Shown: piece after piece, positions 3,343 to 27,224 of the stretch | Position numbering within the stretch: the stretch's first letter is position 1 | Layout: each line of letters begins with the position of its first letter | Source: a virus | Direction: 5' to 3' (one strand) | IMG/VR virus record: IMGVR_UViG_3300042691_007137 | Location: 1-35,291 of that record | DNA length: 35,291 bases | The notes under the pieces: generated by a model | What the model saw: the letters and a program-made list of their open reading frames with translations, nothing else | Told to the model about the DNA's origin: nothing | Database searches by the model: none | Made by a program: the position numbers and the translations under genes

Positions 3343-4086
3343 ATGGCGTCAACAATTTCAGTAGACAAGGTCTACAAACTAAAGAACGGAAATCCGTTAT
3401 CTTACACATTAGCATCAAGAAATCATTCGAGATTCCCACTTATGTGGTTTGATGAAAAGAAAAATCAAAATAGACCATTAAGATATGCAATAAATCAGAA
3501 GTCTCCTTTCGAGGATGAGCAAGATGGAAATGCAATTATGGAGCCAATCGTTTTCGAGGATGGCTTTCTTAGTGTTCCAAGAACAAATCCGGTACTACAA
3601 GAGTTCCTTCATTATCACCCTTTGAATGGTGTAATCTTTGCAGAGATTGACGAAGAGAGAGAAGCTCATGAAGAAGTAGCTGATATGGATATAGAAATCG
3701 ATGCTTTGGTAGAGGCTAGAAAACTTACACTTGAACAACTTGAGACTCTTACAAGAGTTATGTTCGGTAAGGATCCTTCCACTATTTCTACTGCAGAATT
3801 AAAAAGAGACATCTTGATTTTTGCCAAGACCGATCCAAGAAATTTCCTTGCAACTTTGAATGATCCTGAGTTACAGTTTCAAGCTAGAGTTATAAGATTC
3901 TTTGAGGAGAAGCTATTGGCATTACGCAACAACGATAGAGAAGTGTGGTTTAATACCGCGAGTAATAAAAAGAAAATGCTATCTGTTCCTTTTGGAGAAG
4001 ATCCTTATGAAATGGCCGGGCACTTTTTATCAAGCGATGATGGCTTAGATGCATTGAAAATGCTAGAGGCCTATTTAGAGCACTAG
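3343..4086 (+). CDS. Conserved virion-module protein, function unknown
   Basis: This 247-residue protein has an N-terminal block of about 85 residues with a distinctive pattern (YKLKNGNPLSYTLASRNH, then RPLRYAINQKSPFEDEQDGN and FLSVPRTNPVLQEFL). I recall very similar blocks in unassigned structural-module proteins of marine podoviruses. The middle (residues about 105-175) is acidic and helical and contains EQLETLTRVMFG. The C-terminal third is helical too. No catalytic motif, signal peptide or membrane segment is seen. It stands alone between two strong intrinsic terminators, directly after the capsid gene, so its expression is probably coupled to capsid readthrough or to a separate promoter in the 80-base gap. 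A head accessory or completion role is plausible from position only. Confidence 0.7.
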   Translation: MASTISVDKVYKLKNGNPLSYTLASRNHSRFPLMWFDEKKNQNRPLRYAINQKSPFEDEQDGNAIMEPIVFEDGFLSVPRTNPVLQEFLHYHPLNGVIFAEIDEEREAHEEVADMDIEIDALVEARKLTLEQLETLTRVMFGKDPSTISTAELKRDILIFAKTDPRNFLATLNDPELQFQARVIRFFEEKLLALRNNDREVWFNTASNKKKMLSVPFGEDPYEMAGHFLSSDDGLDALKMLEAYLEH

Positions 4087-4128
4087 AAAAATAGGTTATG
4101 GGATTATAGGGGCCCCTGATCGAAAATT

Positions 4129-4157
4129 AGCACAGATTTACTTCTGTGCTTTTTTTT
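4129..4157 (+). terminator. Intrinsic terminator before the tail block
   Basis: A perfect 8-bp stem (AGCACAGA with TCTGTGCT), a 6-base loop and a run of eight T residues lie 43 bases after the previous stop. It closes the unit of the 247-residue protein. The next gene has its own TAnnTTTG element three bases further on, so terminator and promoter are packed back to back. Confidence 0.92.
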
Positions 4158-4181: not shown

Positions 4182-5129
4182 ATGATAAACGAAGTTAGAA
4201 ATGCAGTACTATCCGTATTGAACAAAAACAATTATGGATACATTTCTCCATCAGACTTCAATTTGTATGCCGCCAACGCGCAAATGGAGTTGTATGAAGA
4301 GTATTATAGCAACTACAACAAAGCTATAAGCGCAGAAAATTCTCGTGTTTCCGGCACTGATTATGCTGATATAGAAAGTCCTCTTGCAGAAACATTAGAG
4401 TCTTTTTTAACAGAAAACTACTTAATCAATATTTCCGGAAATATATTCTCGGTTCCTACGCTAACAACTGTCGGGAACTACTCGTATTATATTTTAAAAA
4501 TACTATGTTACCCTAATTTTATAGCATCAGGAAGTAGCACTGCTGTTGCTGTTGGTACATTAACCGACTCTACAGCCACGTTTGTTACAGATGGAGTTTT
4601 ACCGGGATACATCGTATCAAATATTGACACCAATAAAGTAGCGACTGTTCTTAGTGTTACATCAGAGACTGTTTTGGTATTGAGTTCTGACATATTCCTT
4701 GCGACAGCAAATGACTACAGCATATATTCAGACGAGTCAAAAGAAGCGGACAAAGTTAGCGTTGGAAAGATAACGCTATTAAATTCATCAAACCTTACTC
4801 AGCCATCTGTTCTTTATCCTTCTTACACTTTAGAGGGGCAGAATATTAAAATCTACCCATCAACGATAGATACGTTAGGTCAAGTACAAGCGGTTTACTT
4901 TAGATTCCCTAAAACTCCAAAATGGACTTATGTTACTTTAACAAATGGCGAGCCTTCGTTTGACCAATCACAACCTGATTATCAAGACTTTGAGTTACCA
5001 AATGAAGATGAATACAAATTAGTAATGAAAATACTAAAATATTGTGGAGTTTCAATCAGAGAGATTGAGGTGACTCAGTTTGGTATGTCTCAAGAACAGG
5101 CTCAACAACAAACATTTTCTATTCAATAA
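4182..5129 (+). CDS. Head-tail connector / ring-type structural protein
   Basis: The start chosen is ATG 4182 (MINEVRNAVL), giving 315 residues. A longer frame from 4146 would begin inside the terminator hairpin and encode a low-complexity LFFIIFV leader, so it is rejected. The N-terminal 100 residues (helical, with FNLYAANAQMELYEEYY) and the C-terminal 110 residues (YFRFPKTPKWTYV, then DFELPNEDEYKLVMKILKY) look like the split halves of a phage adaptor or tail-completion fold. Between them, residues about 122-182 form a Ser/Thr/Val beta module (DSTATFVTDGV ... SVTSETVLVLSSDIF). This module recurs in the 1758-residue tail protein. The position, followed by a second connector-like gene, fits the ring proteins that join portal and tail in crAss-like phages. 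The specific ring position cannot be told. Confidence 0.6.
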   Translation: MINEVRNAVLSVLNKNNYGYISPSDFNLYAANAQMELYEEYYSNYNKAISAENSRVSGTDYADIESPLAETLESFLTENYLINISGNIFSVPTLTTVGNYSYYILKILCYPNFIASGSSTAVAVGTLTDSTATFVTDGVLPGYIVSNIDTNKVATVLSVTSETVLVLSSDIFLATANDYSIYSDESKEADKVSVGKITLLNSSNLTQPSVLYPSYTLEGQNIKIYPSTIDTLGQVQAVYFRFPKTPKWTYVTLTNGEPSFDQSQPDYQDFELPNEDEYKLVMKILKYCGVSIREIEVTQFGMSQEQAQQQTFSIQ

Positions 5130-5140
5130 AATAAAACAAT

Positions 5141-6064
5141 ATGGCATACATATCTCAATATCAGTATTACGAAAACAACGGCAATACACCTCAAGATGCT
5201 AATTGGGGTTCTTACCAGTATGTTAGTCTGCAAGATGTAGTAAATAACTTCTTGCTAATCCATACCGGCAACCACTCTTTGATAAATAACGAGGAGAGGT
5301 ATAAAGTATTGTTTCATGCAAAAAGAGCGATACAAGAGCTTAATTACGATGCGTTTAAGGAAGTAAAGGTATTGGAGCTTAGTGTTGCAGATTCGTTGCG
5401 ATATATATTGCCATCAGACTATGTGAATTGGGTTCGTATTTCTCTTTACAAAGATGGTGTTCTTCGTCCTCTTACAGAGAATATTCAGGCGCTTTCGTCT
5501 AATGCCTATCTTCAGGACCAACAAGGAAATATTCTATTTGACCAAAACGGAAATATCTTAAGACCTCAATACTCAGATATTGATTTTGATAGGATTACCA
5601 AGAAAAAGAAAAGCATATACCTAAACCAAGGTCATCAGTTTGATGGAGCCGAAGGATGGTGTGTGGGAGAGAATTGGTATTTTGACTATGCGATTGGCGC
5701 GAGATACGGATTGAATACGGAGACCGCGAACTACAATCCTACATTTAAGATAGACAATAAAAGTGGAGTCATAAACTTTGATTCCGGAATGGCTGGAGAG
5801 CTATGTATTCTTGAGTACATTTCAGATGGAATGGAGAATGGAGATAACTCATTAATTACTGTGAACAAGTTGTTTGAGCAGTACATCTACGCTTCTATAA
5901 AATACGAGATACTAAACTCTAAATTTGGAGTTCAAGAGTATATTGTAACTAGAGCAAGAAAAGAAAAAGCAGCATTACTAAGAAATGCTAAAATAAGAAT
6001 CAGTAATATTCATCCAGGGAGACTCTTAATGAACTTAAGAGGAATGGATAAGGTAATCAAGTAA
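5141..6064 (+). CDS. Tail adaptor/ring protein (gp11-like connector role)
   Basis: The protein has 307 residues. An N-terminal helical block (NNEERYKVLFHAKRAIQELN, residues about 49-68) is followed by EVKVLELSVADSLRYILPSDYVNWVRISL (in two beta-rich segments). The C-terminus is helical (NKLFEQYIYASIKYEIL, then REKAALLRNAKIRISN). This helix-beta-helix plan with a conserved LPSDYVNW-type strand is what I recall for ring/adaptor proteins of crAss-like phages, and for the T7 gp11 class that sits below the portal. The stop codon is separated from the ATG of the giant tail gene by one base, so the two are co-translated and probably assemble together. No enzymatic motif is visible. Confidence 0.62.
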   Translation: MAYISQYQYYENNGNTPQDANWGSYQYVSLQDVVNNFLLIHTGNHSLINNEERYKVLFHAKRAIQELNYDAFKEVKVLELSVADSLRYILPSDYVNWVRISLYKDGVLRPLTENIQALSSNAYLQDQQGNILFDQNGNILRPQYSDIDFDRITKKKKSIYLNQGHQFDGAEGWCVGENWYFDYAIGARYGLNTETANYNPTFKIDNKSGVINFDSGMAGELCILEYISDGMENGDNSLITVNKLFEQYIYASIKYEILNSKFGVQEYIVTRARKEKAALLRNAKIRISNIHPGRLLMNLRGMDKVIK

Positions 6065-6065
6065 T

Positions 6066-9000
6066 ATGGCAAATTTAACTAGGAATTTCATAGCAGGCAG
6101 AATGAACAAGGTTGTTGACCAACGTCTTCTACCTGAAGGGGAGTATGTTGATGCTATGAATATTAGAATGGGCTCAACAGAGAAATCTGAGGTTGGTGTA
6201 ATTACAAACACTAAAGGGAACACTTCTTTAACTAAACTAGCATATATAGATGGAACTCCTTTGAGTGTGAACGCAAGATGTATCGGTGCTATTGACGATA
6301 GCGCAAGAGAGACTATTTATTGGTTTGTTCACGATCCTTCTTTTACCACTACCGAATCAGGAGCTAATCCTACCGGCAAGCTTGACTTATTGGTGTCGTA
6401 CAATGTTCTTACTGAGATACTTACATATCATATCGTTAGCATGAACGATGGAGGTGATGTGAATACCACATTGAACTTCAATCCATCTTATTTAATAACC
6501 GGTATCAATTTAATTGAGGATTTGTTATTTTTTACTGATGATTATAATCAACCAAGATTTATAAACATAAAAAGAAATTACCCTAATCCTGTTCTAAATA
6601 TTGACGCATTAAATGCAGAGTCAATATTGGTTATAAAAAAACCACCTACTCAATCACCGTTAGTATATCCTATTGTGACAAGTGGCCAGGAAAATTATTT
6701 AGAGACAAGATTTGTTTGCTTTGCATACAGATACAGATACATTGATGGGGAGTATTCTGCTACATCTCAGTGGTCGGCTCCTGCTTTTATACCAAGACAG
6801 TTTAGTTTTTCAACAAGCAGTGTTTTAAATGAAGGAATGACTAACTTATGCAACGCTGCAATAGTTAAGTACAATTCAGGAGGACCTCTTGTTGTTGGTA
6901 TAGATTTGCTTTTCAAGCAGTCTGAGAACAATATAATCAAGGTAATTCAGAAAATAGACAAGGCAGAGGACGGATTAGCCGACAATACAGAGTATGAAAT
7001 TTCTTTCAATAATAGTAAGATATTTACCATATTGAATGAAGCTGAAATATTAAGATTGTATGATAATGTTCCTTTATTAGCAAAGGCTCAGACTATTATG
7101 GGCAATAGGTTGATGTATGGGAACTATGTTGAAGGTTATAACTTAATTGATAAGTATGGTCAACCAACAAGATTTGAATATTCTACAGAGTTAATTTTTG
7201 AAGAGATAGGAAGTATAGACGTTATTGATGATACTGAAACAGGTCTTTATAATATTGATCCATCAGAAACTCCTGATTTAAACATAGGAGAGTCTATTAT
7301 TACGTTTGATTTAACGGATAGACCATTGGTTGAAGGAGCTTCTATATTTTTAAACATAACAATTAACCACGCTTCTTTTTCAGGCACAGATCCATTTCCT
7401 AGCAATGAAACAGAAAATGTCGAGTATAGCTTTAGCTTTTTACTCACAAGAGACTATTCTTCTGTTTACGAATTAGCAACAAGTGCTGAGTTTTTAAACT
7501 CGGTAGGGACTCTGCTTAATATCCTTCCTGTATCTACAACTACGCCTGGGCAAGACACCTCTTGTGCCGGTATTACCTTTACGGATAGTTTTAACTGCTT
7601 GCTTCCTCAGAGTTTGGGTGATGGCGTTGATATTTATTTTAAATACGGAAGTGGTATTGATGGAATACTTGAGCCGATTAGGATAATTACGAGCCCTGGA
7701 AGCAATATTATAGGACTTCAGTTCCCGGCCATGGAGTATGTTGATGATATCACTACACCGACAAAAAGAATATATGAATATTACAAAGTTATATTCGCGT
7801 CTGTTGTATTTCAGGAGATTGCAAATCCAAGAAGCTTACATAGCAATAGAGGATATGAGATTGGAATAGTTTATATGGATGAATTCAATAGAGCTACAAC
7901 TGCCCTAGTGAGTCCTTATAATGCAGAATATATTCCATGTGGTTATTCCACAAGAAAGAACATGATTCATGTTACAATTCCGGTTACTCAGATAGCTCCT
8001 AAGTTTGCTAAGAGATATAAATTTGTAATTAAGCCTGATGAAGAAAGATACGAAACCATTTATAGTTTCTTGTATTTTACTAATCCGGAGACTAATGAAG
8101 TTTGGCTTTTGTTAGAAGGAGAGAACATGCAAAAAGTCGAGAATGGAGATAGATTGATTGTAAAAGCCGACAGTGATGGACCGGCATTCAGTTGTATTTA
8201 TACTACCGTTTTAGATAAGCAAGCTCAGCCTTCAGGATTTTTAGAGATACCAACTGAGGAAGATCCTGATGTAAATATCAATGTGCCTGCAGGATTGTAC
8301 ATAAAATTAAGACCAAATAACTTTAATCTTTTTCAAGAAGAAAACGCGATTATTGCACCTGGAAGAATTCGTAGATGGGCGAGTGGAGGAGATCATCTTC
8401 AGATGCCTTACCCTATGAATATTGAGGGCACTGATCCAGACAATCCAACTTGGACTTTCTTAGACTATAGCGTTCCGGCAGGAAGTAAAATAGATTGGAA
8501 AGTTGATTGGAATAGAGCTGGAGTTGGAGGTAACTGTTTACCTAGAGGATATAACTTAGAGAAGGTATATACTTCTTCTGCTGACTATGAAAACATGTAT
8601 GAGTGGTTTCTTGGAGAAAACATCCAACTAACTATAAACTCAGGAACAGATAAAGGAGACGATGAGACTAATGTTTTTATTCCAGGGTTAAATAGGAGAT
8701 TAGATGAAGATCTTCTTGGGACAACAACCGGAACCGCTGCTTTTAGATTAATTGACTCTACAGCTACATTTATAACTGATGGTGTTGTGGCAGGCGTTAA
8801 AGTAAATGCAGGAGGAATATTTGGTTCTACTGAGGTCGAAAGCGTTGTAAGTGAAACTGAGTTAATACTTGAAAGAAATATATTTACATCAGGAATGCCA
8901 TATCGATTAATATGGGAGAATGGAGATATTAATTTCTGGAGATTTTATAGAGATACCGTTACCAATGAGTTGCAAATATGGTTTAGTAGTACATTCAGTT

Positions 9001-11342
9001 GTGATGGAAGAAACTATAAATATTCTCGTAGAATTTACATTACTGCAGAGATAACTGTATTTAGAGCTGAGGATGTTATTATATTTGAGACAGAGCCTTC
9101 TGACTCTTTGCCGGATGTATTCTTTGAAAATGAGTTGTCATTTGAGATTGATGAAAATGGAAACCACATGGGTAATATCCAAAATCAAGATATTGCGGGT
9201 GGTATTCCGGCTATTATTGATACTCAGTTTTTTAACTGTTTTGCTTTTGGAAACGGAGCTGAGAGCTATAAGATAAGAGACTCTATAATTGGAAGACCTT
9301 TTAATTTTGGAGAAAGAGTAACTACTGTTGCCGAGCAAGACTATAAAGAGTCTGACCGTTTCTCTGACATTACTTATAGTGGAGTTTACAATGAAGAGAG
9401 CAACCTCAATAAGTTAAATGAATTTAACAAAGGGTTGTCTAATTACAAAAACTGCGAGGCATCTTTTGGTGAAATATTTTTATTGGATGCGAGAAGCACC
9501 GACGTACTTACTTTGCAAGAGGATAAAATATCTTACGTTTTAGCGGGTAAAAACTTGCTGTCTGATGCAAGTGCTGGAAATATAATTACAGCCACTCCAG
9601 AGGTCTTAGGAACGCAAATATCGAGAACTGAGAAGTATGGTATAAGTTTTAATCCTGAGAGTTATGTTCAATGGGGAGCAGACAGATATTTTACAGACGT
9701 AAAAAGAGGAGCTGTTATCCATTTGAAAGGAAGTGAAGCTCAGTCTGACCAATTGTTTGTTTCTTCTGAAGACAGCATGAGAACTTGGTTTAGAGATGAG
9801 TTTAATGCATCTTTCAATACTCAGAAATTAGGAGGGTTTGATCCTTACATGAATGAATATGTTTTGGCTTTAAATGACAGACCTCTGCCGGTAAATCAAC
9901 AATGTTTGAATTGCGGTATCTCACAAACATTTACATTGTCTGTAAATGAAGAGGTTTCTAAGGAAATGGTTTATTGCGTTGACTTAGGGGCCGTAGTTGG
10001 ATTTACTGAAATCAGTTGGTTGTTTACCAGCGTGGAAGAAGGAGCTACGTTACAAGTTAGCGTTGATTATAACGGAGTTATTGAAGACTCGTTAGCTACA
10101 GATGAGAATGGAAGTATATCCTTCAATAAAAACTCAGTTAGCGTAGAGACCGCAGAGATAACACTTACCTACACAGGAGACATGGTTGTTTCGGTATTGG
10201 TAAATTGTCCTAATACTGAGGAAATGACTATTGTAGAAGTAGTCCTTACTAATGATTCAGAAGGAGGCCAAACAATTCATACTCAGTATCGATATACTGA
10301 TGGTGCTTTTATTGGACCTTTATTCTCTAACTTAGTTCTATTCTCAACAGGAGCTGAAACACCACTTGTGTCGAGATACAATTTATTAAGCGGCATAGTT
10401 GGAACAGGAGGCTTCCCTCAAGAGGATAGTATCATGAGACTCTATACCAATAAAATATCTCCTGATGATTATGTTTTTGACATAGCACAAGATAAGTTTA
10501 GGTATTTGAGAACTTCCGTATTGTATGAAAACAATAGCGTTGATATTGAAAGTTTGATAACTGCATCTTCTTTGGCCACTCCTATATCTGGTGCAACGCC
10601 TGTATACTATGCAGATTTTACTGTTCCGGAAAGTGTAAATGGACAATATCTCTACTTGATATGGGACTTAAGAGACGCAATATCTACAGAGCTTTGTTTT
10701 GGAGAAGCATTAATAAATGCTTGTTGTGGGTGTATTCCAGATTTTTATTACTTGAACGCATCGTTTGCAGATTCTACATCTATATTTACAGATGCTAATA
10801 TGACTACTTATGCTGATAATGGTTTCTATACTTTTGAAGGAACGGTTAGAGAATTAGTAGATGGAGTCTTATTGCCTGCGCAAACTTGTGGAAACTGTGA
10901 GCCTTCTGTTTATTGTTTTGAGATTCCTTTAGATGTATCTTACACAATATCTTATATTGATGAATTTGGTGAAACAACGGAGATAACCGGTCTTGGTGAT
11001 GACTCACTAATTTCTGTAATAGCTATAGTTATACTTAGCTATGAAGGAGCTATATTAGTTGACTGTAACACAGAGCCGGCATTGAGAAGTGATATTGGAA
11101 TAGTAGATCCAGAGGTTGTAGATGGTTGCTCAGAAGCTCTTGAAATCCCTATTTTTATAGTAACTAGCGTTACAGGAGAAATTAATAGTGGTGATGTTGC
11201 TTGCAATTCAGAAGATCCTTTAGATACATTTGATGGAGGAGGATTATACTATAGACTATCTTTAGATTCTGATCCTTCAAATTCAAAAGTATGTTTGGTA
11301 GGAGTTGATGGTGTTATAAGTGTTTATTCAATCTGTTTTTAA
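6066..11342 (+). CDS. Large tail structural protein (muzzle/stabilisation-type), 1758 residues
   Basis: The N-terminus (LTRNFIAGRMNKVVDQRLLP, then GEYVDAMNIRMGSTEKSEVG) is the signature I recall for the big tail-barrel proteins of marine podoviruses and the muzzle-type protein of crAss-like phages. The equivalent protein in T7 would be the nozzle, gp12. The sequence is almost entirely beta-rich. Residues about 884-950 hold a beta module shared with the 315-residue protein. The C-terminal third carries cysteine pairs in a repeat-like setting: CLNCG near 1279, ACCGC near 1552 and CGNCE near 1607. Each of the first and last begins a beta segment that ends in a (V/I)LVNC- or ILVDC-type strand. 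This suggests appended small beta domains, perhaps exposed and host-facing. No signal peptide is present. The role as a virion component is well supported, the exact place in the tail less so. Confidence 0.72.
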   Translation: MANLTRNFIAGRMNKVVDQRLLPEGEYVDAMNIRMGSTEKSEVGVITNTKGNTSLTKLAYIDGTPLSVNARCIGAIDDSARETIYWFVHDPSFTTTESGANPTGKLDLLVSYNVLTEILTYHIVSMNDGGDVNTTLNFNPSYLITGINLIEDLLFFTDDYNQPRFINIKRNYPNPVLNIDALNAESILVIKKPPTQSPLVYPIVTSGQENYLETRFVCFAYRYRYIDGEYSATSQWSAPAFIPRQFSFSTSSVLNEGMTNLCNAAIVKYNSGGPLVVGIDLLFKQSENNIIKVIQKIDKAEDGLADNTEYEISFNNSKIFTILNEAEILRLYDNVPLLAKAQTIMGNRLMYGNYVEGYNLIDKYGQPTRFEYSTELIFEEIGSIDVIDDTETGLYNIDPSETPDLNIGESIITFDLTDRPLVEGASIFLNITINHASFSGTDPFPSNETENVEYSFSFLLTRDYSSVYELATSAEFLNSVGTLLNILPVSTTTPGQDTSCAGITFTDSFNCLLPQSLGDGVDIYFKYGSGIDGILEPIRIITSPGSNIIGLQFPAMEYVDDITTPTKRIYEYYKVIFASVVFQEIANPRSLHSNRGYEIGIVYMDEFNRATTALVSPYNAEYIPCGYSTRKNMIHVTIPVTQIAPKFAKRYKFVIKPDEERYETIYSFLYFTNPETNEVWLLLEGENMQKVENGDRLIVKADSDGPAFSCIYTTVLDKQAQPSGFLEIPTEEDPDVNINVPAGLYIKLRPNNFNLFQEENAIIAPGRIRRWASGGDHLQMPYPMNIEGTDPDNPTWTFLDYSVPAGSKIDWKVDWNRAGVGGNCLPRGYNLEKVYTSSADYENMYEWFLGENIQLTINSGTDKGDDETNVFIPGLNRRLDEDLLGTTTGTAAFRLIDSTATFITDGVVAGVKVNAGGIFGSTEVESVVSETELILERNIFTSGMPYRLIWENGDINFWRFYRDTVTNELQIWFSSTFSCDGRNYKYSRRIYITAEITVFRAEDVIIFETEPSDSLPDVFFENELSFEIDENGNHMGNIQNQDIAGGIPAIIDTQFFNCFAFGNGAESYKIRDSIIGRPFNFGERVTTVAEQDYKESDRFSDITYSGVYNEESNLNKLNEFNKGLSNYKNCEASFGEIFLLDARSTDVLTLQEDKISYVLAGKNLLSDASAGNIITATPEVLGTQISRTEKYGISFNPESYVQWGADRYFTDVKRGAVIHLKGSEAQSDQLFVSSEDSMRTWFRDEFNASFNTQKLGGFDPYMNEYVLALNDRPLPVNQQCLNCGISQTFTLSVNEEVSKEMVYCVDLGAVVGFTEISWLFTSVEEGATLQVSVDYNGVIEDSLATDENGSISFNKNSVSVETAEITLTYTGDMVVSVLVNCPNTEEMTIVEVVLTNDSEGGQTIHTQYRYTDGAFIGPLFSNLVLFSTGAETPLVSRYNLLSGIVGTGGFPQEDSIMRLYTNKISPDDYVFDIAQDKFRYLRTSVLYENNSVDIESLITASSLATPISGATPVYYADFTVPESVNGQYLYLIWDLRDAISTELCFGEALINACCGCIPDFYYLNASFADSTSIFTDANMTTYADNGFYTFEGTVRELVDGVLLPAQTCGNCEPSVYCFEIPLDVSYTISYIDEFGETTEITGLGDDSLISVIAIVILSYEGAILVDCNTEPALRSDIGIVDPEVVDGCSEALEIPIFIVTSVTGEINSGDVACNSEDPLDTFDGGGLYYRLSLDSDPSNSKVCLVGVDGVISVYSICF

Positions 11343-23734: not shown

Positions 23735-23767
23735 ATCTCTTATGTTTCATTAGTTCATATGATTTAA

Positions 23768-24010
23768 TTAGAGTGGTTTATAAATTTCTACTTTTAGTCC
23801 GTGTTTTTCAAGTTCTTCAATCCTAAACTCCTGCAATGGAGATACGCGGCCTTTTTCAGCCTTTACTTCTACGAAAAGAACGTCAGAGTTTTTGGGTATA
23901 GCTATTAAGTCTGGTATTCCTGTTTTATTAGTCATCACCAATTTTATTACGTAGTACCCCTGGGCTTCAAGTTCCTTAATTTTTTTTGACTGTATCCTAC
24001 TTTCTTTCAT
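23768..24010 (-). CDS. VRR-NUC domain nuclease
   Basis: This 80-residue protein is a complete stand-alone VRR-NUC domain. It has an N-terminal helix (ESRIQSKKIKELEAQGYYVI), the GIPDLIAI motif with Asp34, and the FVEVKAEKGR strand with Glu48 and Lys50. SPLQ near residues 57-60 and a final helix and strand (HGLKVEIYKP) complete it. These are the PD-(D/E)XK catalytic residues in the order found in phage VRR-NUC proteins, which are structure-specific nucleases thought to act on recombination or replication branches. Length is usual for the phage form. Its start overlaps the preceding gene's stop by four bases (ATGA), indicating translational coupling. Confidence 0.88.
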   Translation of the reverse strand: MKESRIQSKKIKELEAQGYYVIKLVMTNKTGIPDLIAIPKNSDVLFVEVKAEKGRVSPLQEFRIEELEKHGLKVEIYKPL

Positions 24011-24201
24011 AGTTTATGAACTTTAGTTTGGTCATACGGTTGTATTTCTGTATGATTAACCCAAGATTTTTGATTTACGTTGTGAGTTCCGCCACTCCAA
24101 TCGCCTTGTATTTCTATTGTTGTTTTTCTAATTCCAACCACTTCAAATGGTGCTGAATCTGCTTTGTGGTAAACTTTGTCCCCTAATTTAAAATTGTGCA
24201 T
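24007..24201 (-). CDS. Small beta-barrel-like protein (KOW/YodC-like), function unknown
   Basis: This 64-residue protein starts with FKLGDKVYHKADSAPFEVVG, the pattern of small SH3/KOW or YodC-like barrels: a K-G-D-x-V turn, then a strand with V-G. A second strand pair follows (TTIEIQGDWSGGTHNVNQKS). It ends in HTEIQPYDQTKVHKL. Similar short barrels are frequent in Bacteroidota accessory regions, where function is unknown. It lies directly downstream of an attC-like palindrome, unlike all other genes in this string, which overlap or nearly overlap each other. That gap of 93 bases suggests that this gene, or the one before it, was inserted as a unit. Confidence 0.6.
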   Translation of the reverse strand: MHNFKLGDKVYHKADSAPFEVVGIRKTTIEIQGDWSGGTHNVNQKSWVNHTEIQPYDQTKVHKL

Positions 24202-24225
24202 AATATTTAGTTTTAATAATTCGTA

Positions 24226-24300
24226 CTGTTGCTAACAATGTATATAACAGATACGCAAAATCATGCTTCTCCGCATCTCTTATATACGCAACCGTTATAC
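24226..24300 (-). repeat. Imperfect palindrome, attC-like (integron cassette-like) or flavobacterial intergenic hairpin
   Basis: The core arms are 24240-24255 and 24272-24287: 15 of 16 positions can pair on the transcribed strand (one G-G mismatch, one G-U), around a 16-base loop. An outer TAAC/GTTA pair (24233-24236 with 24294-24297) adds a second short stem separated by unpaired bases. On the minus strand it begins GTATAACGGTTGCG, ends TTGTTAGCAACAGT, and its TAA is the stop codon of the upstream 101-residue gene. The two-stem plan, a core close to the attC R' site (TTGTTAG), and the stop codon lying inside the palindrome are typical of integron cassettes. There is no U-tract, so a simple terminator is less likely. 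Core matches to RYYYAAC/GTTRRRY are imperfect. Confidence 0.45.
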
Positions 24301-24600
24301 ATCTACTTTTGTAACCCTCATCAATTCGTTTATAGAGAATGTAATCTTATTGCACTCTTGAATAAACTCAATTAGTGATGGCAAGTCTTCTTTTTTAAAC
24401 GCGAACCGATCAGCCAGGAACCACGTGTAGGGGGAACAACTATCATCAAGCTCAATCTCTTGAATTTGAAATGCTAATTTTTTCTGAGGGTGTACAGTCA
24501 TGGTGAATGACAATGTATATTCCTTATTTTTTTCTAGCCACTTATTCTCAGGAACTTTGCTAGGTCTGTTATCATTGTTTACGCAAACACACTTTATCAT
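24295..24600 (-). CDS. Conserved hypothetical protein of Bacteroidota accessory regions
   Basis: This 101-residue protein opens with MIKCVCVNNDNRPSKVPENK and continues with an aromatic/hydrophobic beta region (EYTLSFTMTVHPQKKLAFQI). An acidic strand (EIELDDSCSPYTWFLADRFA) and a C-terminal helix follow. I recall near-identical openings (MIKCxCxxxxxRPxxxPxxKW) in uncharacterised proteins of Bacteroidota genomes and phages. Its function is not known to me. Two cysteines at positions 4 and 6 and one near 53 are noted, but they do not form a zinc motif. It overlaps the upstream gene by four bases (ATGA). Its TAA stop lies inside the attC-like palindrome. Confidence 0.62.
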   Translation of the reverse strand: MIKCVCVNNDNRPSKVPENKWLEKNKEYTLSFTMTVHPQKKLAFQIQEIELDDSCSPYTWFLADRFAFKKEDLPSLIEFIQECNKITFSINELMRVTKVDV

Positions 24601-25081: not shown

Positions 25082-25104
25082 AATAATTATTTTTATAGAT
25101 TTCT

Positions 25105-25158
25105 AATAATTATTAATATGTTCACCGCATCAATGAGGTAAACATATTAATAATTATT
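25105..25158 (-). repeat. Long near-perfect hairpin flanked by AATAATTATT palindromes
   Basis: Arms of 22 bases (25105-25126 and 25137-25158) pair at 21 positions with a single C/A mismatch on the plus strand. That mismatch becomes a G-U wobble on the transcribed minus strand, so the RNA stem is complete. The loop is 10 bases. The distal arm covers the stop codon of the 65-residue gene. The self-complementary 10-mer AATAATTATT is present at both ends of the hairpin and again at 25082-25091. There is no GC-rich stem and no clean U-tract, so it is not a standard terminator. An RNA-processing or stability element, or a DNA cruciform / protein-binding site, is possible. Confidence 0.7.
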
Positions 25159-25351
25159 GTTTAACTATATACAATCTACTTTTTTTGTCATACACTACAT
25201 TTTCTTTTGGTATAATTTTAACCTCTGAAATTAGAATTTTACAAGGCTCGCTGTAATACCAAATGTAATCAGGGTCTGTTTCTGAAATCATACCTGCTTC
25301 GCAATATTGTGGTCTGATACCGGGTGGTTGGAAATAAACTGTATCGCTCAT
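25154..25351 (-). CDS. Small protein, function unknown
   Basis: This 65-residue protein is rich in aromatic residues (TVYFQPPGIRPQYCEAGMIS, then DPDYIWYYSEPCKILISEVK) and probably all beta. Two cysteines (near 18 and 39) are isolated. No family is recognised. The start overlaps the stop of the SNF2-type helicase by four bases (ATGA), and the stop lies in the distal arm of the hairpin, so it probably belongs to the helicase transcript. Confidence 0.5.
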   Translation of the reverse strand: MSDTVYFQPPGIRPQYCEAGMISETDPDYIWYYSEPCKILISEVKIIPKENVVYDKKSRLYIVKQ

Positions 25352-27167: not shown

Positions 27168-27224
27168 TGGGTTGAATTTAAGATTAAAAATATAATAAAA
27201 AAATAAGTCAACACTACGAGTATT

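Follow-up and report, generated by a model that had tools for sequence, protein, structure and literature searches.

The stretch of DNA analysed here (the window) covers positions 1 to 35,291 of the IMG/VR virus record IMGVR_UViG_3300042691_007137. On its minus strand, a 101-aa gene ends within an imperfect palindrome, which is followed by a 64-aa gene and an 80-aa nuclease-like gene (Table 1). The earlier note on this DNA had described the palindrome at 24226-24300 from the letters alone, and its basic observations hold: all but one of the 16 positions in the inner arms pair, one of them as G.T; the TAA at 24297-24295 in the outer box is the stop codon of the 101-aa gene; and 93 bases separate this gene from the next. 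That all other small genes here overlap is mostly true and not universal, with gaps of 33, 72 and 57 bases at 23735-23767, 25082-25153 and 27168-27224. The cultured relatives of the 808-aa primase-like protein of this virus, all distant, are mostly phages of Flavobacterium, Polaribacter, Maribacter, Nonlabens and Cellulophaga, and judging from these protein matches the window virus probably infects flavobacteria. Elsewhere in the window, a 1758-aa protein (6066-11342) is recognised by PF25731, the model for the muzzle protein of crAss-like phages (E 1e-10).

Table 1. Features at the junction between the 101-aa and nuclease-like genes (window coordinates)
Feature	Position	Strand	Remarks
Resident 80-aa nuclease-like gene	23768..24010	-	PHROGs match to endonuclease / Holliday junction resolvase families; as a rule immediately downstream of the 101-aa gene
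64-aa gene	24007..24201	-	Corresponds to codons 1-61 of a 77-aa cassette gene, followed by HKL and a stop codon that overlaps the ATG of the next gene
Insert relative to related phages, ~290-292 bp	24008..24299	-	Ends ambiguous, ATG at both junctions
Putative mobile unit, exchange at G|TT	24013..24294	+	CATAG|TTT at 24012/24013; CCG|TTATAC at 24294/24295; read from sequence
attC-type site	24222..24306	-	Match to leave-one-out covariance model R2; layout common to 29 other sites
Site outer box GTATAAC	24300-24294	-	Then spacer GGTTGC
Site arm GTATATAAGAGATGCG	24287-24272	-	
Site loop, 16 nt	24271-24256	-	
Site arm CGTATCTGTTATATAC	24255-24240	-	Then ATT
Site outer box GTTAGCAA	24236-24229	-	Conserved flank CAGTACG down to 24222
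GTTAGCAACAGTACG (far outer box and flank)	24236-24222	-	After ATT
Resident 101-aa gene	24295..24600	-	Stop inside site outer box; conserved in site-free related phages

A family of attC-type sites in viral contigs

The palindrome alone is unremarkable and within chance expectation, since each dinucleotide shuffle of the AT-rich window holds about 9 comparable 16-nt arm pairs and the fold z-scores of the hairpin are -1.3 (DNA) and -2.3 (RNA); what exceeds chance is its match to a family of sites. A search of viral contigs that started from a 16-base exact match returned chance matches mixed with a clear hairpin family, whose layout is TAACG, a few bases, GTATA.., a loop of variable length, ..TATAC, 3 bases and GTTA. 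Among 30 aligned sites, AAC, GTATA, TATAC and GTT are invariant, and five stem base pairs retain pairing through changes on both sides. The check by covariance model, which the earlier note had proposed, was carried out with a model of the family itself: R2, trained with the window left out, assigns the site 43.9 bits (E 4.8e-7) and matches nowhere else in the window. The outer boxes GTATAAC/GTTAGCA and the 16-nt inner arms correspond to the attC pattern of RYYYAAC/GTTRRRY with inner L boxes, GTATAAC deviating from RYYYAAC at one position. An Rfam search with the hairpin gave no match, and the 95-base site found weak matches in cultured phages, where the family consensus performed better. As a palindrome the hairpin is surpassed by another at 25103-25160, long and near-perfect (ATAATTATTAATATGTT..AACATATTAATAATTAT), which lies between two minus-strand genes and is possibly a regulatory site.

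Many viral contigs carry multi-site arrays matched by covariance model R1 (about 5-6 sites each in L020, L002, L050 and L039). R1 sites are present in the cultured Polaribacter phage P12002L, and family sites also in the Cellulophaga phage phi13:2, where a 72-bit site between gp035 and a DNA methylase gene (L253 3992-4060; NC_021803 15543-15611) offers a handy laboratory case in a cultured phage.

Within arrays, the two ends of an interval between consecutive sites are complementary. Over 64 intervals, viral and chromosomal pooled, reverse-complement matching beyond GTT/AAC extends to 7.42 of 12 positions when both ends come from the same interval. Pairing ends from different intervals gives 4.39, and comparing both sides of a single site gives 4.48; 0 of 10,000 permutations of these 64 cassettes reached the observed value. 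Such complementarity is the signature of integron cassettes, with pairing here over about 13 nt rather than seven. It is a property of the family; the window retains a 5' cassette end only, and this end fits its 3' counterpart in the copy of the cassette carried by another viral contig, L184.

A truncated cassette between two resident genes

Comparison with 80 related phages, fetched by the primase-like protein, places an insertion at this junction. The 101-aa and nuclease-like genes were both detected in 30 of them, and in 20 of these the two genes are site-free and at most 35 bp apart, often overlapping. Relatives read GTAGATGAAAG and the window GTAGATG-insert-ATGAAAG; in L113, for example, the junction is ACAGTAGATGAAAGAAAG, and the window has instead GTAGATG-[site + 64-aa gene]-ATGAAAGAAAG. 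The idea that the gene pair around the site had entered as a mobile cassette is supported, with one correction: a cassette is there, composed of the site and the 64-aa gene, but the 101-aa gene is resident and kept in relatives. The palindrome is not fixed among these phages, with family-model matches in only 3 of the 80, and the presence-or-absence comparison that had been suggested finds no homologue of the adjoining 64-aa gene in any of them. A Pfam search with the 64-aa protein returned nothing; the 101-aa protein has a weak CBM_4_9 match, below the cut-off, on which we do not rely.

The same junction has received other cassettes. Read by eye, L108 holds hairpin-ORF-hairpin-ORF-hairpin and L169 one cassette gene; the last hairpin is nearly identical in the two, and its GTT lies directly 5' of the nuclease ATG. 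In L162, a site detected by the model is fused to the stop codon of the nuclease gene and followed by a methyltransferase-like gene (read by eye); arrays of sites were found in L108 and L162. In two relatives a homing-endonuclease-like gene seems to split the nuclease-like gene itself; it is HNH-like in L107 (17343-18103) and GIY-YIG-like in L169 (16100-16945), both read by eye with approximate coordinates.

Both junctions of the window can be read as a G|TT exchange on the plus strand, which implies the empty site CATAG|TTATACATC. As exactly this empty site was seen in no relative, we only infer this reading of the junctions; the empty sequence of the relatives fits plain insertion at G|TT inexactly, and such an insertion is not claimed.

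The 64-aa gene is a truncated copy of a shared cassette. Residues 1-61 of its product are 85-97% identical to that of the 77-aa cassette gene in contigs L184-L190, where an upstream and a second, downstream site flank the gene (the L189 contig ends before the latter). This gene moves between genomes as a unit with its boundaries at the boxes: it occurs in five unrelated phage contexts, and blastn between the cassette contigs yields one alignment of ~270-300 bp per pair, except for the near-identical L187-L189. The L184/L186 alignment spans 4965-5247, with cassette boxes at 4966 and 5247, and the remaining alignments stop within ~10 nt of the boxes. The window copy, 94.5% identical to L184 over 256 bp covering site and gene, lacks the last 16 codons and a second site of its own. 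A search of 400 host genomes, run without a positive control, found no copy of the cassette gene. L188 and L189 are 99.8% identical over 5241 bases and diverge just before the outer box at the cassette 3' end; the L189 contig stops 20 bases past this split, which may reflect an assembly end rather than cassette variation.

Chromosomal arrays, their recombinase and cassette polarity

The first chromosomal loci of the family came from a Maribacter MAG and from Robiginitalea aestuariiviva, and R1 matches occur in 116 of 151 Flavobacteriaceae genomes (about three quarters). The Robiginitalea array is adjoined by a gene, at C2:552347-553513, for a 389-aa tyrosine recombinase whose best PDB match is IntI4 (E 1e-40), aligned in two pieces between which IntI4 residues 209-240 are unmatched. 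We take these residues to be the location of the IntI-specific insert, and by its alignment the Robiginitalea enzyme is a putative IntI-like recombinase without this insert. Against the integron-integrase model it scores 227 bits, below the cut-off of 265. Homologues (E <= 1e-30) are found in 127 of the 151 genomes, the weaker of which may be other tyrosine recombinases. Thirteen of 15 recombinase regions (11-20 kb) hold sites, all of them 3' of the recombinase gene and in one sense, barring two much weaker reverse-strand echoes of strong matches. Within 1.5 kb of 20 recombinases we count 12 sites, compared with ~0.1 estimated from the genome-wide density. In one chromosomal array (L254), near-identical sites are repeated at 3995-4142, 6107-6254 and 6664-6811, which suggests recent cassette duplication. 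No matching phage-encoded recombinase was found in the window or in the viral loci fetched, and the tyrosine recombinase of phi13:2, considered as the family's enzyme, is unrelated.

Sites have asymmetric spacers (3 vs 5-6 nt), directly visible in the sequences, and phages and chromosomes differ in how genes lie relative to the hairpin. In chromosomes, a gene ends exclusively at the GTTAG side (41 sites, against 0 at the other side), and a second chromosomal set, chosen independently of the recombinase, gives 18 to 1 for the same side. In phages, by contrast, genes end at the TAACG side, 61 to 8 (Fisher p ~1e-22 for 61:8 vs 0:41, with sites counted as independent and some related), a difference noticed post hoc and based on strand calls from one model. 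The longest ORF between sites follows the same division, 35 to 2 in phages and 0 to 16 in chromosomes, and the window site has the phage polarity. These counts could be accommodated by one integron-like system shared by phages and hosts, with an insert-less IntI-like recombinase and two separate cassette pools of opposite polarity, in which the host enzyme would insert phage cassettes in the phage reading direction. We advance this scheme tentatively and hold it to fall slightly short of an even chance. If it is true, the window holds one phage-polarity cassette, and a cassette crossing between the phage and host pools would lie antisense.

Origin of the insert and relation to known integrons

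Based on these comparisons, we consider it very probable that the window site belongs to a flavobacterial attC family and forms, with the 64-aa gene, a cassette whose insertion separated two resident genes and whose 3' end and second site have since been lost, the enzyme being most likely that of the host. Family membership, insertion, cassette boundaries, sharing between phages, truncation and the link between recombinase and arrays are established as far as sequence can establish them. For the course of events we infer that a folded single strand would undergo exchange at G|TT, that an IntI-like tyrosine recombinase of the flavobacterial host would act in trans on the phage DNA to place site and gene between the 101-aa and nuclease-like genes, and that a deletion would then have removed the cassette 3' end together with the second site. 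On this reading, such cassettes pass between flavobacterial phages. The host is the most likely source of the enzyme because the fetched phage loci hold no matching recombinase, whereas Flavobacteriaceae carry an IntI-like one at the ends of arrays. The cassette reading has its limits in the window itself, which holds a single site and, on its other side, no intact cassette end.

The window has not only the gene but also the site in common with L184, which would also be expected if both had arrived by homologous or microhomology recombination with an array-bearing phage. The insert would then keep its identity as a cassette, and no integrase need have acted in the window phage. The ATG at both junctions, the missing other end of the cassette, as after an illegitimate junction, and the lack of a recombinase in the fetched phage loci agree with such a transfer. 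The outer box of the site nevertheless marks the start of the insert, and cassettes with intact ends entered the same junction in relatives, which leaves this route with a substantial but minority share of our belief. Far less probable is a REP-like dispersed flavobacterial repeat lying next to a gene by chance, a form of the dispersed hairpin repeat that the earlier note had offered as its second option. The family is indeed common in flavobacterial chromosomes, but its sites there form cassette arrays and are not scattered: they alternate with genes whose two ends are complementary, and the arrays keep to one side of a single recombinase and run in one sense, so that end complementarity and one-sided geometry both contradict a REP-like element. 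A palindrome arisen by accident, or serving the 101-aa gene as an intrinsic terminator, would suit the abundance of similar arm pairs in this AT-rich DNA, and we regard it as the least credible reading of all. Chance is ruled out by the leave-one-out match to R2, no T-run follows the hairpin on either strand, and in relatives the 101-aa gene ends without it. Insertion of a cassette, most likely by a host enzyme, is the reading we retain.

Cassettes in phages have precedents. The cited part of Qi et al. 2023 (PMC9892861) reports attC clusters (CALINs) in virulent phages, P12002L included, and recombination by IntI1, on one folded strand, of P12002L_attC2, which may or may not be one of the sites found by R1. 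As in those CALINs, the window combines an attC-type site and a cassette in a phage of lytic type that has no integrase of its own, and P12002L holds sites of the window's family; unlike them, the window has no cluster, only one site and one truncated cassette, and a CALIN requires at least two clustered attC sites without an integrase. Phage-to-phage cassette exchange, a hot spot within a phage genus and inverted gene polarity do not appear in that part of the paper. Like chromosomal (sedentary) integron arrays, the family has hairpins bounded by GTT/AAC outer boxes and cassettes that each hold one gene and have complementary ends, arrayed on one side of a tyrosine recombinase gene; it differs in the longer end complementarity (~13 nt instead of 7), in a recombinase without the IntI-specific insert and below the integron-integrase cut-off, and in phage genes that are inverted relative to the hairpin. 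A complete integron, made up of an insert-bearing IntI gene, an attI site and a cassette array, is present neither in the window nor in the phage loci, which hold no such recombinase, and the Robiginitalea enzyme falls short of the definition by its missing insert and its score. Integron cassettes are also reported to insert at attG sites outside integrons (Loot et al. 2024, as cited in PMC12901181), which likewise places a single cassette in non-integron DNA; in the window, by contrast, a junction between phage genes is the target, and the recombinase is putative.

For Bacteroidetes, IntegronFinder 2.0 (PMC9024848) names a single complete integron, in Salinibacter, the taxon-specific attC models of PMC8352920 include none for this phylum, and a review (PMC8618304) lists Bacteroidota among integron-bearing phyla. 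No paper on a Flavobacteriaceae-wide cassette system was found in the literature covered, mostly open-access and without preprints. Phage attC clusters are already published; that literature yielded no account of cassette traffic, of the chromosomal system or of inverted polarity. Standard criteria reject the flavobacterial recombinase, which could explain the near-absence of integrons in Bacteroidetes surveys.

Integron sites in phages were previously known from a handful of isolates. Flavobacterial viruses share a large, common and exchanging cassette pool, hardly described so far, and one group of phages has a hot spot; the inverted polarity of this pool's genes makes the separation of virus and host cassette pools a testable question.
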